Shown here: positions 3,201 to 59,200 of the stretch, one piece after another
Layout: each line of letters starts with the position of its first letter
How positions within the stretch are numbered: the first letter of the stretch is position 1
NCBI GenBank assembly: GCA_964023275.1
Contig: OZ029927.1
Span: forward strand, 2,217,715 to 2,281,714
Origin: Norana najaformis
Lineage: Eukaryota; Annelida; Clitellata; Crassiclitellata; Hormogastridae
Length of the DNA stretch: 64,000 nt
Direction: 5' to 3'
The notes under the pieces: generated by a model
What the model was told of the DNA's origin: nothing
Database searches by the model: none
Seen by the model: only the letters and a program-made list of their open reading frames with translations
Made by a program: the position numbers and the translations under genes

Positions 3201-6200
3201 TTTTAAGTAATATAATGTAATGATGACAATTTATATAGCATTGTAAGTAGCAGACTACTCTAGGGTGCTTTACAATGTCAAAAGTCAGCCCAAGTACTAA
3301 GAGTTATGCAGTAAATAGAATTTCAGCTGTTTCTTAAAAGAGGTTGACACTGAATGGGTGCTGGAAGGCTGTTCCAGACACGCGACACGCGGGCCAGTGA
3401 CCCGAAATGATCGAGCACCCTGTCTAGTCTTAGTTGCTGGTACAAATACATTGGCGGACTTTGAGGATCGCAGTTGCATTAACTCACAGAGGCGCTGCAG
3501 CATGGGTACCTAATGGTATCATCGACATCGGAAATGCAACGGTTACTTGGAAATGCAACGCTCACTTCCCCAGCAGTGCAGTAATGACTATGGGTAGAAA
3601 AGAGAAACAGATGACAAGGAATGAGGGGAGGCAGAAGAAGAAGAAGAAAGATTGGTGAGAAGCGTAGGGGAATATGTGTGTATTTCTGTAGATATGTATG
3701 CATGTATCGGACTATTAATATAGCACCTTTAAAGAATCACGCAAGGTTGCTACAGAGCAAGTCAACAGCTGGACGGTGGTCCAGCTGCTGCGTTGCTGTT
3801 GAATTACTTTTACCAGTTAATCCACTTTTTGTCCTGGAGTGAATCAAAGATAAATTTGTCTGTTTGTGGTGATACCTTTTTGTTGTTGATACTAAGGAAC
3901 AGAAGGAGGTGTGAGCAACTATCAGGTGAAACAATTGGAGCAGCAGAACGAGAGAATGAAAGAGGCAATTGTTAAGTGAGTCCATCTTTTTGGTTCTTTT
4001 TACCAGTGGTGTATTGTGTAAAAAAATGTAAAGGAGTTTGTGTACTTAGGAAGTCTCATGACATGGAATAATGATTGCGCAAAAGACATAAAGGCAAGAA
4101 TAGTAAAGGCAAAAGGAGTTATGGCAGGGCTAAACAACATCTGGAAAAGCAGGAAAATCAGCCACAAGACCAAACTAAACGTCTTGAAAACATGTGTGTT
4201 TAGCACAGCTCTGTACGCATGTGAGGCATGGACAATCAAGAAGACGGATAAAGATAAGATATTAGCATTTGAAATGTACTGCTATAGACGAATATTACAT
4301 CTGAATTGGACAATGAAGGTAACAAATACGGAGGTCCGAAGAAGACTGAGCATAAAAGAAGATCTAATACAAGTAATAATGAGAAGGAAATTACGCTTGT
4401 TTGGACATATATGCAGGATGGATGACAGTAGAAAAATAAAAAGCGTGATGATGGGAATTATGGACGGAAATGGGAGACGAGGAAGACCTAACAGGGAGTG
4501 GACAGATGATATAAGGGATTGGTGTAAACAAGACTTGCACGCCTTGATAAGAACCGCACAAGATCGGGATCTGTGGAGACAAGTGACAATGCATGCAGTG
4601 GACACCTACGGGCTCTCGGCCCATGGATCATGATGATGATGATGTATTGTGAAGATCAGAAATTCATAGGTAGCAAATTCTTCAAAGGTGATTTATGTGG
4701 TCAGCTCTAAGTGCCTGTACCTAATACTGAAAATTATTGAAATTTTGAAATTTAGCAGTTAATGTTGACCTGTAGATTACGACTAACAACTCATCTCTTC
4801 CTGAGCACATTTGCTTTTTAGGCTTTCTTGTTTTCAATAATTGCTTTTCTGGTTTTTGACTTGATTCACCCCAGATTTCAGCAGGCAGATCAATTTTACT
4901 TGTGCGAGTGATGACAGATTAAATTAGATTAATTGTGATTGAGGATTTGTTGATCTGATGTTGAAATGATGTTTCGTTTCAGAATGCGAGAACTTTCAAA
5001 CTTTGAGAAGCAGGAGCACCAGAAGGTTATGAAAGAGTTGGACTCTCTCAAGACGACGGTGACATCACTGACAAAAGACAAAGAGAAGCTGGAGAAGGAA
5101 GTTTCAAAGCTGCAGGAGGAAATTATAGAACTGAAGGAACAGGTACAGAGTGTCAGCTGTCTATAGTGGATGGAAAATTTATTCTGGTAGTTTTAACTGT
5201 AGCTTTCCACTGAGCTCTATTAGTCTGTTGAGACATAACACTCTGAAAGGTTGGTCTTGCATAAGCATATTCTGTCTTGTGCCAACAGGAGCTTCAATAC
5301 TTCAGCAGGCAATCTAATGTAATGTAATGACTACTGTACATTACAGGTATCAGAATGCACAAAGGATGAAGCAATGGTTGCCTAAATTGAAACTGTAGTT
5401 AAAATTATAATCTGTTGGAAATGCCTGGCCAAAATTCAGTGGGCCAGAAAAGGCAATGTCATGTGTCTAGTAATGTGCTACCCAAACTGTCACAAACCTG
5501 CCAAAATCTGACATATGTAGTATAGTATTTTTCAGTTCAATTCAAAGCCATTTATTGAGTCACTAACAACAATGAAACTCATTAGTAAACCTGAATTTAA
5601 CCGTTGATTTTTGTGCTTTAAAGGGACTCTTTCGATTTTAGGTTGATCTTCTGTACATCAGATAGTCTGTGCAACCTCAGAAGGTTCCAGAAAGATGCTA
5701 CATAAAAGTTAACATATGTACTGGCCTTTGGAAAACTGGGAAACAGGAAGTCTTTAAAAATGTTTTGTTTTCGCAACAGGTGGATGCTGCGCAAGGAGCA
5801 GAAGAAATGGTGGATCAGTTGACAGACAAAACTCTGCAGCAGGAGGAACGTATCCACCAATTGGAGGAGGAAAAAGCAGACCTGGTGAGAAACAAGAACA
5901 TCTAAGCAACATGCAAAATGCCAAAGGTTTTAAGTTACTAGAATTGTCTTTGTCTTTAGCCGTATGCTTCCATAGGATTTTATGTTTTGGGGAAGAATGG
6001 CATTGATGTTGGTCTGTTTATTTGGGTGTGTTGTTTATCTGCTAGGAAAGTCTTTGTGAGATGAATGATGAACTCCAGGAAACAGCGAGGGAGACGGAGT
6101 TGGAGTTGCGTGAAAAGTTAGACCTTGCGAATGCACGCACTTTAGAAGCCAAGCGCAAGTTAGATGCTTCGGGTGAGGCAATCCTTGACTATGAGACAAC

Positions 6201-28394: not shown

Positions 28395-28492
28395 GTGGAG
28401 ACATGCACCTTCGACAGTTGTGAAATTTTCACCAAAATCGCCTCAGCCATAGCTGCCCGACCCCTCTGGAATAAACTCCCACCAGAATTACG
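28395..28492 (+). mobile_element. L2/CR1-like C-terminal scrap
   Basis: The frame reads 'FTKIASAIAARPLWNKLPPE', the usual motif near the end of L2/CR1 RT proteins. It stops abruptly at the left end of the transposon at about 28493, suggesting the transposon landed in it. The matching downstream flank was not found. Confidence 0.5.
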
Positions 28493-28571
28493 ACAATTAC
28501 ACTGGACAACAAATTTTTACAAAAGTCATGTTACTGAAATGAAATTAGTCAGTTCTTATCAATTTGTATGT

Positions 28572-28650
28572 GCTGAACACGAATATGACAGTGAAAATGC
28601 CGAATTGGCTCTAGTTTTTTTGTAATCTGAAATGAAGTAATTTTATATCG
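28572..28650 (+). repeat. Left inverted-repeat arm of the DNA transposon
   Basis: It begins gctgaacacgaatatgac and continues with 'aattggctctagttttttt'. It is the imperfect inverse of 30700-30788. It sits only about 60 bases beyond the stop codon of the enclosed gene. Confidence 0.75.
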
Positions 28651-28710
28651 CACAATGCATGCCAATAGTGATACACTTACAGTTAATATTTGTAAAAACC
28701 AGGTCATAGA

Positions 28711-30402
28711 CTAGTTCTTAGATTTTTTTGCCTGTCTCTTGTACAGCTGTTCGGGAGCATCTCTGCGGAGTGTCCAGCAGTAGTCAGCCAACATTGTAGT
28801 GGACCATTTTCCCTGGTACCTTTGCTCCATTGTTGCGATATCTTGATGAAAACGTTCGCCATGTTCGTCACTAACCATACCACAGTTGTCAGGGAAGAAA
28901 TCCAGATGGGAATGAAGGAAATGCATCTTCAGAGACATATTGCAGCGAAATTTCTGGTACTGCTTGAGCATGTCTTCTACTAGTTCCTTGTAGTTTTCTG
29001 CCCTAACATTCCCCAGAAAGTCTGTAGACACTAGACGAAAAGCATTCCATGCTTGTTTCGCATCACCCTCCAGCAAGTTGTTGAAGCGGTCATCTTTGAA
29101 GAGTTCTCTAATCTGAGGACCCACAAAAACTCCCTCTTTAATCTTTGCTTCGCTGAGTCGAGGGAATTTTTCATGCAGGTATCGGAAAGCTGGCGAAGTG
29201 CGGTCCATGGCTTTCACGAAGTTCTTCACCAAACCTAGTTTGATGTGAAGGGGTGGTAGTAGGATTTTGTGAGCCTCGACCAGAGCTGGGTGCTGGATAT
29301 TCTTCTGTCCAACTGCCATGTTTTGTCTGGGAGTCCATTCCTTCCGCACGTAGTGCAACTCTCTTGCTCGGCTATCCCACTCACACAAGAAACACATATA
29401 TTTTGTATATCCTTGCTGCAGTCCCATTAAAATGGCAACTACCTTCAAATCACCACACAGGTGCCATTTGTACCTGTTATAGTCAATGGAATGCAGTAGC
29501 TGTTTTAGGTTATCGTATGTCTCTTTCATGTGGACAGCATGCGCTAATGGAATAGATGGAAGACGGTTTCCATTGTGCAAAAGCACAGCCTTAAGACTCA
29601 GTGTTGAAGAGTCTACAAAGAGTCTCCATTCTTGTGGGTCATGAGTGATCTGTAAGGCATTCATGAGGTCGTCAATATTGGAACAGAATACCAGATTACC
29701 TTCCTTCATAAAGAAAGGTTCCAACTGCTGATGGCGCTTTCTATATGAAGTAATTGTGACATCTTCTTCTAGAAGATTCCATTGTTGGAGTCTTGATCCT
29801 AGCAATTCTGCCTTGTTTTTGGATAAGTCCAAATCACGAACAAGGTCATTTAGTTCTTCCTGTGTTATTCTGTGTGGGGTTGATGATGCACCACAGTGAA
29901 AATCGGGATCACTGCACGCTGACGGACCAGGAGAAGAACATGTCGGCTCACCCTTGTCCTCATCAGATGAATCAAGGAAAATATATTCTGCTGGAGGTTC
30001 TGGAATAGGAAGTCCATCACCATGTGGAACTGGTCTCAATGCTGACGGAATGTTTGGGTAGACTATTGTCGACTTCTTTTGCTTCGTTATTCCACCGAAA
30101 AGAGGAGGAACCAAGCAGAAGTAACAGTCATCTACGTGGTTGCTTTGCTCTCTCCACACCATGGGAACTGCAAACGGCATTGATGGTCTTTTGCCATTCA
30201 ACCACTGTGAAAGCTGTGTTGTACATGTAGCACAGCATATATGCGGGGCCCATGGCTTGTCTTGGTCACCAACCTTGCATTCGAAGTAAGCATGATATGC
30301 CTTCTTGACTTGATAAGTGATACTTTTCTTCTGGTTGGCAAATGTCACTTCCCCACAAATGTAACAAAAGTTGTCCACAGTATTTACGCACTTCCGAGGC
30401 AT
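28711..30402 (-). CDS. Transposase-like zinc-binding protein, 563 aa, family not named
   Basis: The gene has one uninterrupted frame from ATG at 30402 to TAG at 28711-28713. The N-terminus has a ZAD/BED-like Cys pattern (C13-x2-C16 with C57-x2-C60) and a third pair (C93, C96), suggesting zinc and DNA binding. An acidic S/D/E linker follows at about 143-170. The centre shows 'LFVDSSTLSLKAVLL' (D264) and 'HLCGDLKVVAILMGLQQG' (D318), then C337-x2-C340 and 'LPPLHIKLGLVKNFVKAMD'. The end has 'MHFLHSHLDFFPDNCG' and 'SDEHGERFHQDI' (E513 or E516). D264, D318 and one of these Glu residues could form an RNase H-like DDE triad; this is my inference. I recall similar uncharacterised proteins from several invertebrates but cannot name the family. 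Inverted repeats and lack of introns support a transposon origin. An intact frame means a recent arrival or host use. Confidence 0.75.
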   Translation of the reverse strand: MPRKCVNTVDNFCYICGEVTFANQKKSITYQVKKAYHAYFECKVGDQDKPWAPHICCATCTTQLSQWLNGKRPSMPFAVPMVWREQSNHVDDCYFCLVPPLFGGITKQKKSTIVYPNIPSALRPVPHGDGLPIPEPPAEYIFLDSSDEDKGEPTCSSPGPSACSDPDFHCGASSTPHRITQEELNDLVRDLDLSKNKAELLGSRLQQWNLLEEDVTITSYRKRHQQLEPFFMKEGNLVFCSNIDDLMNALQITHDPQEWRLFVDSSTLSLKAVLLHNGNRLPSIPLAHAVHMKETYDNLKQLLHSIDYNRYKWHLCGDLKVVAILMGLQQGYTKYMCFLCEWDSRARELHYVRKEWTPRQNMAVGQKNIQHPALVEAHKILLPPLHIKLGLVKNFVKAMDRTSPAFRYLHEKFPRLSEAKIKEGVFVGPQIRELFKDDRFNNLLEGDAKQAWNAFRLVSTDFLGNVRAENYKELVEDMLKQYQKFRCNMSLKMHFLHSHLDFFPDNCGMVSDEHGERFHQDIATMEQRYQGKWSTTMLADYCWTLRRDAPEQLYKRQAKKSKN

Positions 30403-30516
30403 TACTGTTCTGTATTGTATCTAAATGGATAAAGTAATAATAGTTTAGAAAACAGTAACTTAAACTGTCTCGCACAAAGTCTGTAATATTGTAAATGCTC
30501 AACCGTTCCGACTCGC

Positions 30517-30555
30517 TTTATATAGTACACTGCTGACGTCATCTTACGTCAGCAG
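30517..30555 (-). promoter_or_regulatory. Promoter of the transposase-like gene: TATA box and palindromic CRE
   Basis: On the - strand, ctatataaag (about 30517-30526) is a TATA box roughly 120 bases before the ATG. A perfect CRE, TGACGTCA (30534-30541), lies about 10 bases upstream of it. The CRE is part of a 9-bp inverted repeat, ctgctgacg (30530-30538) and cgtcagcag (30547-30555), whose other arm gives a second half-site. CREB/ATF-type factors bind this octamer; activity here is inferred. Confidence 0.55.
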
Positions 30556-30699
30556 CCGACTGGCTGTAGTTTTACATTACATCAGAAAATGACGTAATCA
30601 ACTGTGCATGATGTGTCCATGATGGGATTATGCAATGAGGTGGAATATTACATCATTCTAGACTTATTTAGGATATTGTCGCAGTCCTACTGCATAAAT

Positions 30700-30788
30700 T
30701 TACATGGTGAAACATAAAAATGAACTATATGAAATATTTTCAAAACGAGAGCCAATAAAAAATTTTTATGGTTATATTCGTGTTCAGC
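30700..30788 (-). repeat. Right inverted-repeat arm of the DNA transposon
   Basis: On the - strand it begins gctgaacacgaatataacc and continues with 'attggctctcgtttt'. The first 15 bases equal those of the left arm. Confidence 0.75.
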
Positions 30789-31189
30789 CCACCAAGATGC
30801 TACACATTAGGGCCTTTTCCAGTCAGTAACGATTTCTATGTTGACCATTATCTGATCCATCATACGAACTCGCCAACACTTCACCTCTTGCAGTTTCTGC
30901 GCTGGTCTTAAACTCAAAACTTAAAACATGTCCAAAAATCCATTCCTGATTCTTGCTATTCCCCTTATCACTCTTCTCGCTTCAACATCAAGCACCATCC
31001 ACCGTAGCCGTCCGGCTGCCTGCCTGAGTCCTGGATCTTGACCTGAAACTGAACCCTTTTGCCTATCGATTTTATCTTGACTGAGCGTCTGTGAATAAGC
31101 TAGTTCCAGCGACTTGGCTTTCGTAATCTCGATATTACGATTACGACTTATAATATAATAAATTAATAATCTGTGGCCAAACTGGCCAG

Positions 31190-36804: not shown

Positions 36805-37750
36805 ACCTCTTTCTTATCCACCACAGGCTACCTCGCTGTCTCTGTAGACTTCTCTTTCTTATCCACCACAGGCTACCTCGCTGTCTCTGTAGACTTCTCT
36901 TTCTTATCCACCACAGGCTACCTCGCTGTCTCTATAGACTTCTCTTTCTTATCCACTACAGGCTGCCTCGCTGTCTCTATAGACTTCTCTTTCTTATCCA
37001 CCACAGGCTGCCTCGCTGTCTCTATAGACTTCTCTTTCTTATCCACCACAGGCTACCTCGCTGTCTCTATAGACTTCTCTTTCTTATCCACCACAGGCTA
37101 CCTCGCTGTCTCTGTAGACTTCTCTTTCTTATCCACCACAGGCTACCTCGCTGTCTCTGTAGACTTCTCTTTCTTATCCACCACAGGCTACCTCGCTGTC
37201 TCTGTAGACTTCTCTTTCTTATCCACCACAGGCTACCTCGCTGTCTCTATAGACTTCTCTTTCTTATCCACCACAGGCTGCCTCGCTGTCTCTATAGACT
37301 TCTCTTTCTTATCCACCACAGGCTGCCTCGCTGTCTCTATAGACTTCTCTTTCTTATCCACCACAGGCTGCCTCGCTGTCTCTATAGACTTCTCTTTCTT
37401 ATCCACCACAGGCTACCTCGCTGTCTCTGTAGACTTCTCTTTCTTATCCACCACAGGCTACCTCGCTGTCTCTGTAGACTTCTCTTTCTTATCCACCACA
37501 GGCTACCTCGCTGTCTCTGTAGACTTATCTTTCTTATCCACCACAGGCTACCTCGCTGTCTCTATAGACTTCTCTTTCTTATCCACCACAGGCTACCTCG
37601 CTGTCTCTATAGACTTCTCTTTCTTACCCACCACAGGCTACCTCGCTGTCTCTATAGACTTCTCTTTCTTATCCACCACAGGCTACCTCGCTGTCTCTAT
37701 AGACTTCTCTTTCTTATCCACCACAGGCTACCTCGCTGTCTCTATAGACT
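36805..37750 (+). repeat. 45-bp minisatellite, 21 units
   Basis: Each unit is a pyrimidine-rich stretch ttctctttcttatccaccac, then ag, then gctacctcgctgtctct and a/gtaga. Units differ at two main sites: gctAcc/gctGcc and tctGtag/tctAtag. Coding the units by these sites gives a super-repeat of seven units (about 315 bp). The repeat is 15 codons long, so it stays open (a 351-codon frame), but that follows from the unit length alone. Confidence 0.95.
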
Positions 37751-41803: not shown

Positions 41804-41989
41804 GTAGGCATCGTGTAGATCTTCATTTCTTCCCAAGCTTGCTTGCTTGAAGTGCTACTGCTTGCTTTAACTGCACGTGCTTGCTTCAACTGCATGCTTC
41901 ATCTGCTACTGATTGCTAACGTGCTTGCTTGTTTCTTCTGCTACTGATTTCTTGCTCTTCATCTACGCTATGTGATTTCATTGGTAGCC

Positions 41990-44860
41990 CCTGCTTGCTT
42001 GCTTTTCTTCTGCGCATAGACTCTGATTTCCTCACTAGCCTGCAGCTTGCTTGCTTTTCTTCTGCGCATAGACTCTGATTTCCTTGCTAACCTGCTGCTT
42101 ACTTGCCTTTCTTCTGCGCATAGACTCTGATTTCCTCGCTAGCCTGCTGCTTACTTGCTTTTCTTCTGCACATAGACTCTGATTTCCTTGCTAGCCTGCC
42201 ACTTGCTTGCTTGCTTTTCTTCTGCTGCGCATAGACTGATTTCCTCGCTAGCCTGCTGCTTACTTGCCTTTCTTCTGCGAATAGACTGATTTCCTTGCTA
42301 GCCTGCTGCTTACTTGCTTTTCTTCTGCACATAGACTCTGATTTCCTTGCTAGCCTGCTGCTTACTTGCCTTTCTTCTGCGAATAGACTCTGATTTCCTC
42401 GCTAGCCTGCTGCTTACTTGCCTTTCTTCTGCGAATAGACTCTGATTTCCTTGCTAGCCTGCTGCTTACTTGCTTTTCTTCTGCACATAGACTGATTTTC
42501 TTGCTAGCCTGCTGCTTGCTTGCTTGCTTTTCTTCTGCGCATAGACTCTGATTTCCTCGCTAGCCTGCTGCTTACTTGCTTTTCTTCTGCGTATAGACTC
42601 TGATTTCCTTGCTAGCTTGCTGCTTGCTTGCTTTTCTTCTGCGCATAGACTCTGATTTCCTTGCTAGCCTGCTGCTTACTTGCTTTTCTTCTGCGTATAG
42701 ACTCTGATTTCCTTGCTAGCCTGCTGCTTACTTGCTTTTCTTCTGCACATAGACTGATTTCCTTGCTAGCCTGCTGCTTACTTGCTTTTCTTCTGCGTAT
42801 AGACTCTGATTTCCTTGCTAGCCTGCTGCTTACTTGCTTTTCTTCTGCGTATAGACTCTGATTTCCTTGCTAGCTTGCTGCTTGCTTGCTTTTCTTCTGC
42901 GCATAGACTCTGATTTCCTTGCTAGCCTGCTGCTTACTTGCTTTTCTTCTGCGTATAGACTCTGATTTCCTTGCTAGCCTGCTGCTTACTTGCTTTTCTT
43001 CTGCACATAGACTGATTTCCTTGCTAGCCTGCTGCTTACTTGCTTTTCTTCTGCGCATAGACTCTGATTTCCTTGCTAGCCTGCTGCTTACTTGCTTTTC
43101 TTCTGCGTATAGACTCTGATTTTCTTGCTAGCTTGCTGCTTGCTTGCTTTTCTTCTGCGCATAGACTCTGATTTCCTTGCTAGCCTGCTGCTTACTTGCT
43201 TTTCTTCTGCGTATAGACTCTGATTTCCTTGCTAGCTTGCTGCTTGCTTGCTTTTCTTCTGCACATAGACTCTGATTTCCTTGCTAGCCTGCTGCTTGCT
43301 TGCCTTTCTTCTGTGCATAGACTCTGATTTCCTTGCTAGCCTGCTGCTTGCTTGCTTTTCTTCTGCGCATAGACTCTGATTTCCTCGCTAGCCTGCTGCT
43401 TACTTGCTTTTCTTCTGCGTATAGACTCTGATTTCCTTGCTAGCTTGCTGCTTGCTTGCTTTTCTTCTGCGCATAGACTCTGATTTCCTCGCTAGCCTGC
43501 TGCTTACTTGCTTTTCTTCTGCGTATAGACTCTGATTTCCTTGCTAGCCTGCTGCTTACTTGCTTTTCTTCTGCACATAGACTGATTTCCTTGCTAGCCT
43601 GCTGCTTACTTGCTTTTCTTCTGCGCATAGACTCTGATTTCCTCGCTAGCCTGCTGCTTACTTGCTTTTCTTCTGCGTATAGACTCTGATTTCCTTGCTA
43701 GCTTGCTGCTTGCTTGCTTTTCTTCTGCGCATAGACTCTGATTTCCTTGCTAGCCTGCTGCTTACTTGCTTTTCTTCTGCGTATAGACTCTGATTTCCTT
43801 GCTAGCTTGCTGCTTGCTTGCTTTTCTTCTGCACATAGACTCTGATTTCCTTGCTAGCCTGCTGCTTACTTGCCTTTCTTCTGTGCATAGACTCTGATTT
43901 CCTTGCTAGCCTGCTGCTTGCTTGCTTTTCTTCTGCGCATAGACTCTGATTTCCTCGCTAGCCTGCTGCTTACTTGCTTTTCTTCTGCGTATAGACTCTG
44001 ATTTCCTTGCTAGCTTGCTGCTTGCTTGCTTTTCTTCTGCGCATAGACTCTGATTTCCTCGCTAGCCTGCTGCTTCCTTGCTTTTCTTCTGCGTATAGAC
44101 TCTGATTTCCTTGCTAGCCTGCTGCTTGCTTGCTTTTCTTCTGCGCATAGACTCTGATTTCCTTGCTAGCCTGCTGCTTACTTGCTTTTCTTCTGCGCAT
44201 AGACTCTGATTTCCTCGCTAGCCTGCTGCTTACTTGCTTTTCTTCTGCGCATAGACTCTGATTTCCTTGCTAGTCTGCTGCTTACTTGCTTTTATTCTGC
44301 ACATAGACTCTGATTTCCTTGCTAGCCTGCTGCTTACTTGCTTTTCTTCTGCGCATAGACTCTGATTTCCTCGCTAGCCTGCTGCTTACTTGCTTTTCTT
44401 CTGCACATAGACTCTGATTTCCTCGCTAGCCTGCTGCTTGCTTACTTGCTTTTCTTCTTCGCATAGACTCTGATTTCCTCGCTAGCCTGCTGCTTACTTG
44501 CTTTTCTTCTGCACATAGACTCTGATTTCCTCGCTAGCCTGCTGCTTGCTTGCTTGCTTTTCTTCTTCGCATAGACTCTGATTTCCTCGCTAGCCTGCTG
44601 CTTGCTTGCTTGCTTTTCTTCTGCGCATAGACTCTGATTTCCTCGCTAGCCTGCTGCTTACTTGCTTTTCTTCTTCGCATAGACTCTGATTTCCTCGCTA
44701 GCCTGCTGCTTGCTTGCTTGCTTTTCTTCTGCGCATAGACTCTGATTTCCTCGCTAGCCTGCTGCTTGCTTGCTTTTCTTCTGCGCATAGACTCTGATTT
44801 CCTTGCTAGCCTGCTGCTTGCTTGCTTTTTCTTCTGCGCATCTGCTTCCTTGCTTTTTTC
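41990..44860 (+). repeat. ~52-bp minisatellite, over 50 units
   Basis: The unit runs ctctgatttccttgctagcc, then tgctgcttacttgcttttct, then tctgcgcataga. Length variants lack ctc (49 bp) or add ttgc steps. It degenerates leftward to about 41820. Super-repeats are visible: 42661-42861 recurs at 42919-43119 (258 bp apart), and 42870-43058 recurs at 43440-43628 (570 bp apart). GCTAGC occurs in most units. It contains no gene. Confidence 0.95.
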
Positions 44861-56283: not shown

Positions 56284-59200
56284 TCAGGGCCTGAGTTGTG
56301 CCAGGAGACTCTGAAGTCTGGCAATCTGTTGCTGCAGATCGTCTCTCCTCTTCTTCATATCGTTGATCCAGACTCGTTGGTCGGTTACCGTTCTGTTGAG
56401 TGCGGCCACCGTCCCCTGCAAACTGAGACTGTTGTAGTAGATGTGCGCCTGCTGGACTTCGTTCTGGAGCTGAGAGATGGCGTTGCTGTCTGGTCCCTGG
56501 ATGTTCTGCAGCCTCCTACTGAGGTCGGCGATTGTGTTCTGTGTCGTCTGGACCTGAAGGGTGACGTTGTCGGCCGTCATTCTGGCCAGCTGCGCCTTGT
56601 CCTCGAGTGCCTTGGCCGCTGTCAGGTAGTCGTTGAGGTTGTTGGCAAGAGTCGCAACGATGCTGTTGTTCTTCTGGAGGACGTCGGCCAGTTTGGCCTG
56701 GACGTCGTTGAGGACGGACGATGATTGCGTCATGAGCAGGTTGGCTTTGTCCGACATTGGAGAAAGCGCCTACAACAATTAAGCGTTTCATTTTATTTTT
56801 ACTGCACTTTAAACGCGCTAAAGATAAGGAAATTCAAATCTGAGATACGTGACAACTGTGCGCGAACAACTGTCCAGGGTCTTTAACCTGGGTCATTCAA
56901 GCATTCGTAGGCAATAACATGGACCCGGTTGGTGATGATGGTGGTGGTGGTGGTGGTGGTGGTGGCGGCGGCGGTGATGATGATCATGATGATGATCATG
57001 ATGATGATCACGAGGATGATCATGATGATGATCATGATGATGATCATGATGATGATCATGATGATTATGATCATGATGATTATGATCATGATGATGATCA
57101 TGATGATGATCATGATGATGATTAAGCAACAATGGTGAAGAACCTCCCAGAAGGACGGTCTAGTGCACGAGAAAGCACGCTATGCACGTATCTAATAAAA
57201 ACATTATAAATGCATGACCGTCTAAAATTTAATGTAAACGCCTGTTGCAGAGCAACGCACACATTGTCTTCAAAACGAATGCAAAGCCATTGAAATTAAC
57301 TAGAAGAGACATCTGAAAACGCGAGATTTATCGAAATTAACAAAAGACAAGATAAAAAAATGAAATGCGTGAATTGGAATTGCCGAAGTCAAGCAGAATG
57401 AAGTATTTCCATCTTATATTATTAAATGTACACGGCTTTATATGTCGACGGTATGGCTTCGACTCTGCAATGAATTGATCGGGTGAAATCCTTCACCACC
57501 GCTGCCCGTTTGAATGGGCGCCACGCCATTTAAGGTCCCCGTGTACAGACCGTGCTAGCCCGCCATTCAAATCTCTTAAATATAGCGATTATCGGTATGC
57601 GAACCGGCATCCTCACGCACAGAGGCGCCTTGACGTTAGCTTTAACCAATGAGCTAACCAGGCCAGTTGTTCCTAATTCATGATTCGGTGAGCGTTTGCT
57701 TTTGTCAGGTACGTAAAAGGCGCCATATTAAGTGGCTAAATGACTAACTAACTAACTAACTCATTCACTCACTCATTCACTCACTCACCCATTCATTCAC
57801 TCACTCACTCACTTCTATAACGCCGTGAGCATTAGGATAACAGCGCTATAGAAGTCTTTAGATAAGATAACTACTAACCCGGTTGAATTGACTAACTCTA
57901 TCCACGGTCTGAGCTGCTATCTGCTGGGCCTGAGTTGAGCTGGCAATCGATGTCTGCAGAGACCGTAGAACCTGGTCAGAGAAGTTGTTCGCCTGTTGGC
58001 CGAGGTCACGAATCCTCTGCACCGTCTGCAGCGATTCGTTCGCCTTACTCTGAGCGGCTTTAGCACAGAAACAATAATCGTAATCGTAATCGTACTCTCG
58101 ACATTTCAACAGCGCCCGAAGGAAGTTAAGTTTCCGGAACCAGCTTAATCATAGGCTCTCGGTAAAAAAATTGATAAGCAGTTACTGTAGCATACAAACG
58201 AAACATATGTGGCGCATGGTATCACCTTTGCTGCGAAGGCATCGCTAAACTAAACTCAATACATACATACATACATACATACTTGTATACATACATGCAT
58301 ACATACATGCATACAAACATACATACACAAATACATACAACATACATATACATACACATACAGACATGTATGCATACATAAATACATAACACATACAAAC
58401 ACACACATACATACATACATACATTCATACATGCATACATACATATGTACATACATACATACATATATATACATACATAAATACATACATTCATACATAC
58501 ATACATACATGCATACATACATACATACATGCATACATACATACATACATACACATAAAACATACATAAACATACATACACATTCAGACATGTATGCATA
58601 CATAAATACATAACACATACACACACATACATACATACAGGCATACATACATACATTCATACACAAATACATACAACATACATATACATACATACACACA
58701 TACAGACATAAATGCATGCATACATACACACATGCATACATACACACATGCATACATACACACATACATACATAAACACACATATTTACATACATGTTTG
58801 CATACATACACACAAACATACGCATAGATAGCCTACCCTGAGCTGAAGCATCGAAGCTCGTCATAATGTTAAGCATTCTCTGCGCCTGATCGGTTGTATT
58901 CTGGGCCAGAACGACCGCATTTGTTGCCGTCTGATTGGCTGCTGAGAATCGGTTATTTAGAGCATCGATGGCGCTCTTGTTGCCGTTCACCTGACTGATC
59001 AGCTGAATTGTCTGAGTGTTGTTTGTCTGCACCTGATCGAAAGTTGGCTTACTGGATGCTTGAGCTGCGGCAGTCTACGGACACGTACAAAGGGTGTGGT
59101 GCAAAATACAGACCTCTTAAGTGATTAAAATGCTTAATTTGCTAAAAAAGATGTTGTGCCTCAATGATCAAATGTGGGTAGATTATGTATCTGGAAGTCA

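Follow-up and report, generated by a model that had tools for sequence, protein, structure and literature searches.

The genome of the annelid Norana najaformis harbours a Chapaev3-type transposon whose copies are best explained together, with a probability that we estimate at roughly two in three, by a recent amplification, by single-ended insertion finished by the host, and by hairpinning of the flanks. What can be read directly from the copies is a set of CAC/GTG ends, a TWA target, palindromic extra nucleotides, a target duplication that, where present, rises with the number of terminal bases lost, and microhomology at the broken junctions.

In the window (the whole stretch of 64,000 nucleotides that was analysed), the sequence-only reading had placed an element with inverted ends at 28493..30828. 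The inverted ends stood, and comparison of copies moved the borders to 28500-30847 (minus strand, 2348 bp). The alignment of genomic copies that had been proposed at the time was run on 20 fetched copies, and it yielded both the ends and the TTA duplication. Complete copies measure about 2353 bp and have the termini CACTGGTCAACA...TGTTGTCCAGTG, the copy in the window having lost the outermost CAC of its 5' end. The outer inverted repeats of the element are 12 bp long, CACTGGACAACA and (CAC)TGGTCAACA. In the window, the 3' terminal repeat CACTGGACAACA lies at 28500-28511 (plus strand), as seen from copy comparison and end matches, and the 5' one, reduced to TGGTCAACA and reading CACTGGTCAACA elsewhere, at 30839-30847 (minus strand). 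The matching inverted arms noticed earlier are real (50 nt, 78% complementary) and are subterminal in placement, at 28569-28618 on the 3' side (plus strand) and 30742-30791 on the 5' side (minus strand). The target-site duplication TTA occupies 28497-28499 on the 3' side of the transposon and 30848-30850 on its 5' side (unstranded), according to copy comparison and to the read-through of a related repeat, L163, whose right flank crosses the window target uninterrupted and equals the joined window flanks in 38 of 41 bases. The insertion of the window sits in repeated sequence (28470-28499 and 30848-30880), and L163 represents another insertion of this element, truncated at its 3' end and located at the corresponding TTA of a different copy of that repeat.

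The 563-codon intronless frame reported by the sequence-only reading is an unbroken ORF at 28711-30402 (minus strand), seen as one open frame and in the genome copies, and the ends, the copies and the TWA duplication bear out its transposase-like nature. The three Cys pairs (C13/C16, C57/C60 and C93/C96), D264, D318 and the C-terminal SDEHGERFHQDI, which starts at S511, are all present in the protein, together with a fourth pair, C337/C340. The N-terminus is rich in Cys and His and has no Pfam match there; its part from C13 to C96 (30115-30366) is a candidate Chapa zinc domain, named after the excerpted text of PMC4411706. D264 (29611-29613) and D318 (29449-29451) would be the first and second catalytic Asp, and E513 or E516 in SDEHGERFHQDI (28855-28866) is the candidate catalytic Glu. 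By the published motif definitions, the protein also has a C(2)C motif at C337-C340 (29383-29394), 19 residues past D318, an LH motif at L385-H386 (29245-29250) and an H(4)H motif at H494-H499 (28906-28923), all these features being on the minus strand. Judged by eye, the order D264, D318, C337-C340, L385-H386, H494-H499, E513 or E516 is the published one. The distance from D318 to C337 is presumably equal to the D708-C727 spacing of RAG1.

Elsewhere in the window, a 45-bp tandem repeat (21 copies, 98% match) runs from 36807 to 37750 within a 351-codon open frame, a 52-bp tandem repeat of about 55 copies from 41973 to 44841, and between 45976 and 49719 a related unit, up to about 135 bp long, forms several arrays. 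An ORF at 4040-4633 looks like the terminal part of a gene for a LINE reverse transcriptase, with a weak Pfam DUF6451 row (E 0.00054) under the cut-off, and a 157-aa minus-strand ORF at 56284-56757 has, by eye, a laminin-type coiled-coil likeness and no Pfam match.

The inverted ends are beyond chance: each end pattern has 956 genomic matches at up to 3 mismatches, versus 0 and 1 in backwards-read controls. Both patterns are commoner in the forward than in the reverse orientation (527+429 and 550+406); ends at low coordinates thus seem to be counted too often, perhaps through a feature of the search. A search for protein copies through the whole 608-Mb genome in 17 contigs scored 77 of 6574 candidates, all of them 99-100% identical over the ORF (one row ends at residue 562), and 74 of the 77 are free of internal stops. 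On contig C1, 89 exact 5' ends and 80 exact 3' ends were listed, which form 68 pairs and leave 33 ends without a partner. Most pairs (63) span 2300-2370 bp, two are clearly shorter (1029 and 1706 bp) and three are longer (4212, 6164 and 8524 bp).

The intactness of the frame had been attributed to recent movement or selection. The first 41 copies, 40 of which were picked by protein score, differ on average by 2.4 of 1692 nt from their own consensus, and this consensus served as the yardstick of constraint for 21 copies taken by an unpaired end, regardless of the ORF (3 of them hold only part of it). These 21 copies are 0.40% off that consensus and carry 104 amino-acid changes, 6 stops and 23 silent changes, besides 15 deleted bases and 1 inserted base. 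The resulting N/S per site is 1.5, and the lower value in the first 41 copies goes with their selection by protein score. Selection keeping the ORF is thus rejected: copies decay after insertion without visible constraint, and therefore the intact ORF is a sign of youth. Recent movement is upheld by the near-identity of the copies, by the number of end matches and by the TWA duplications. The element is best explained as an autonomous cut-and-paste transposon, recently amplified to roughly a thousand copies.

The junctions of copies with two ends were studied in a set of 79, formed by 29 of the first 41 copies, with both ends exact, and 50 more from C1; twelve copies were excluded from this count (the window copy, L010, L014, L015, L030, L031, L037, L039, L041, L043, L044 and L047). 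An exact 3-bp duplication, mostly as A-TWA-T, flanks 44 of the 79, versus 16.9 expected from cross pairs. It is absent in the other 35, and in many of these 1-4 nucleotides have been added that form a palindrome with the target. The extra nucleotides were located by seeking the last three bases of the left flank at right offsets 1-5, a rule that is blind to palindromes, with success in 24 of the 35 inexact copies and not in 11. An addition was taken as palindromic when its last two bases were reverse-complementary to the target bases beside them. At offsets 2-4 this occurs in 13 of 18 copies, versus 5 of 82 in the flanks of exact copies, and a control in which left flanks were matched to right flanks taken from other, exact copies would give about 2.1 of 7.9. 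The idea arose from the first 29 copies (6/6), and the later set of 50 gives 7/12 (7/8 at TWA sites), the remaining 5 of its 12 additions at these offsets being non-palindromic. The added pair differs with the target, being AA (7) or TA (1) before TTA and TA (6) before TAA (Fisher p=0.005). At offset 1, 3 of 5 additions are palindromic, no better than the background of 15/33, and the palindrome does not fit in L053 and L107, in which the base before TWA is not A. The mirrored view from the left side gives only 4/14 palindromic additions, and therefore the effect lies mainly at the 3' junction. Among the 35 inexact copies, TWA is intact on the left and changed on the right in 20 and the reverse in 8, one copy has two different TWA, and 6 fit neither description.

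Empty sites were sought with one query of 17 joined flanks, and eleven were fetched, including 6 of the 21 listed for L059. Ten of them, corresponding to L061 (1), L059 (6), L057 (2) and L009 (1), are without the added nucleotides, and therefore the additions in these four copies are not target sequence; the empty site found for L022 is too diverged to judge its addition. The addition reads AA in L061 and L009, and would shrink to A on the assumption of a 4-bp duplication. A duplication of 4 or 5 bp as a general rule was rejected from the counts over the 79 copies. A 4-bp duplication together with an extra A may explain some TTA cases, among them L009 and L061; it does not explain L057, L059, L075 and L022, in which TWA is preceded by a base other than A.

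Instead of coming from the opening of hairpins, the 1-4 extra nucleotides might be the product of snap-back synthesis of the polymerase theta type during end joining, which we think somewhat unlikely. Inverted copies are also produced by snap-back synthesis, and the microhomology of the truncated ends, described below, points to end joining of this kind. However, the palindromic additions are centred on the border of the target duplication and usually measure 1-2 nt, as is seen with hairpin opening.

Besides the two-ended copies, many copies have lost part of one end. Among the 62 copies read for this purpose (the first 41 and 21 of the 33 unpaired C1 ends, the latter picked for being unpaired), more than 5 bases are missing at one end in 25 (9/41 and 16/21), which are the counts of a selected sample and not a frequency. 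The end lost is the 5' one in 14 copies and the 3' one in 11. In 19 of the 25, the flanks of the broken and intact ends have in common a direct duplication of 6-76 bp, running from junction to junction, with 2 mismatches in L151 and L152 and one extra junction base in L030 and L163. No duplication was found in four truncated copies (L039, L159, L161 and L164), and two more, L044 and L167, are in simple repeats and were left out of the correlation by judgement. The intact end of the 19 copies adjoins TWA in 13, TAT or TAG in 5 and another triplet in 1; in L014 the last G of this end is also missing. L153 and L154 have the same 3' breakpoint (50 bases lost) in different places, with different flanks and duplications (15 and 10 bp).

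The length of the duplication rises with the number of bases lost (Spearman 0.894, p=2.5e-7, n=19). The individual values, as bases lost/bp duplicated, are 14/6, 24/12, 25/7, 50/15, 50/10, 62/18, 66/19, 70/21, 87/22, 90/30, 130/39, 169/11, 181/32, 210/51, 236/51, 253/67, 287/64, 305/76 and 387/40, with L037 and L155 well off the line. The Theil-Sen slope is 0.22 (0.17-0.25) with an intercept of 2.2, near the normal 3 bp; the intercept is soft because ordinary regression gives 8.0 (slope 0.16), and the Theil-Sen intercept, taken by side, is 9.5 where the 5' end was lost and -6.9 where the 3' end was lost. The coefficient becomes 0.66 (p=0.001, n=21) when L044 and L167 are added, and 0.40 (p=0.047, n=25) when the four duplication-free copies are also entered as zero. 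The relation was spotted on the first 15 copies (rho 0.90), and the four usable later ones, too few by themselves, give a rho of 1.0. At the broken junction, the microhomology between the element and the target past the duplicated stretch has a mean of 2.05 nt, versus 0.34 in the control, and amounts to at least 2 nt in 11 of 19 copies versus 6% of the control. Incomplete copying from the intact end is disfavoured, since it predicts the opposite sign, with longer synthesis leaving less missing.

The truncated copies could also have begun complete and have been cut later at one end, followed by synthesis-dependent repair in which the freed flank copies a few dozen bases from the empty homologue and joins the resected end by microhomology. 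Such a route would produce an identical structure, with loss and copying coupled in time as well, and the palindromic additions fit into it as resealed single-end cuts. Nevertheless, we consider it unlikely: it predicts many internal deletions, whereas only the two short pairs out of the 68 on C1 fall far below full length, and the copied stretches are short (6-76 bp).

Insertions are generally precise in the rice survey of PMC4423477, as far as its excerpt goes, and for this reason the one-ended copies found here are unusual. The literature matches listed, mostly judged at the level of the listing, include no description of the one-ended and junction pattern, which is weak evidence that a target duplication growing with terminal loss and the palindromic additions are new here.

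Concerning the family, which had been left unnamed, the ends, the target duplication, the length, the single exon and the motifs match Chapaev3 in the excerpts of PMC4079192 and PMC12730594, so that, on its ends, target duplication and motifs as described in the literature, the element is assigned to Chapaev3 (CMC group, RAG1-related). The excerpt of PMC4079192 characterises Chapaev3 elements by CAC/GTG termini and by the duplication of a 3-bp TWA target that lies between A and T. In the same text, their transposases measure about 560 aa, contain the motifs C(2)C, LH and H(4)H and are in most cases encoded by a single exon. The family described here has 5'-CAC...GTG-3' termini (the window copy being without CAC at one end), the TWA duplication between A and T in the proportion given above, a transposase of 563 aa in one open frame by genomic reading, and the three motifs as spotted by eye. 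Merrow, Garfield and Conan, as described in that source, resemble it in ends, target and motifs, as well as in size (2,289 bp for Garfield_BM and 2,451 bp for Merrow_PM, with transposases of about 560 aa) and in the single exon of most Chapaev3, the likeness being one of described features. In contrast, TWA duplications are reported there for all Chapaev3 elements examined, while here only the 44 of 79 two-ended copies have them exact, and end-truncated copies with long duplications also depart from this rule. Chapaev3 carries the Chapa zinc domain in the excerpt of PMC4411706, and in that of PMC12730594 the C(2)C and H(3-4)H motifs between the second D and the last E are common to EnSpm, Mirage, Chapaev, Transib and RAG1. 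Transib and RAG1 belong to the same wider group, CMCT, and are alike in C(2)C, H(3-4)H and CA..TG ends (partial texts of PMC4411706 and PMC12730594), although the protein studied here has no significant match to any PDB chain.

The Pfam search that the sequence-only reading had suggested was run and no family reached the cut-off; the placement came from the ends, the target and the motifs. Searches of Pfam, NCBIfam, PHROGs and PDB sequences with the protein gave nothing meaningful, the best rows being Retrotrans_gag in Pfam (E 0.11 with the whole protein as query, 0.051 with a piece of it, under the cut-off), a PHROG with E 0.3 and a PDB row with E 1.1 for a piece of the protein, and scans of viral and prokaryote contigs gave no relative. 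The 5-bp duplication of Transib differs from the 3-bp TWA, and a 5-bp duplication occurs in 1 of the 79 copies versus 1.5 expected. It is very improbable that the element comes from a different superfamily whose 3-bp duplications are similar, PIF/Harbinger in the first place or else EnSpm/CACTA; the Pfam searches gave no match to a Harbinger-type transposase domain. PIF/Harbinger likewise duplicates TAA/TTA (PMC4423477, in part), and EnSpm/CACTA has related C(2)C and H(3-4)H motifs and, in the families of PMC12730594 as excerpted, 3-bp duplications like those seen here. However, in the available text of PMC4079192 it is Chapaev3 that combines CAC/GTG ends, a TWA target lying between A and T, and the LH and H(4)H motifs; the TWA target preference and the LH motif described there would set it apart from EnSpm/CACTA.

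In the mechanism that we propose for this Chapaev3 family, the transposase cuts at CAC/GTG and inserts into A-TWA-T with duplication of TWA, as the sequences show. Often only one end would complete strand transfer, the other being left to the host. The free end might then undergo resection at the same time as the target 3' end grows by copying the flank to which it belongs; microhomology would join the two and so bring both processes to an end. The product would be a copy truncated at one end, with a duplication growing with the bases lost, as is the pattern observed. Palindromic nucleotides also arise in RAG joining, and the 1-4 nt palindromic additions at intact ends are most readily explained if the transposase hairpins the flanking ends, which are then opened away from the centre and sealed again, much as in V(D)J joining by RAG. 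That the additions are commoner at the 3' junction is not in itself predicted by the hairpin idea. We infer that the truncated copies and the palindromic additions are single-ended events completed by host end joining. The more detailed proposal, of insertion one end at a time with resection and copying in step (about 1 base per 4-6 lost) and of RAG1-like hairpinning that leaves V(D)J-like nucleotides in the germ line, is tentative, and we give it slightly less than an even chance. Mobilisation of the truncated copies as retro-DNA by LINE machinery, whose insertions are truncated and flanked by duplications of several to about 20 bp, would account for duplications longer than 3 bp with one-sided truncation, but it is extremely improbable and was rejected, as losses affect both sides, inspection of the printed junctions by eye shows no poly-A tail, and the intact end retains CAC or GTG (with the exception of the last G of L014) next to the target triplets counted above.

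Chapaev3 lies within the RAG1-related group of transposons, so that, if the palindromic junction nucleotides are what they seem, flank hairpinning may extend beyond the Transib/RAG lineage. The scaling of the duplication with the loss, if true, would be a quantitative and genome-readable record of half-finished integration, in which each truncated copy would record the duration of the half-integrated state, and it can be sought in any young DNA transposon family.
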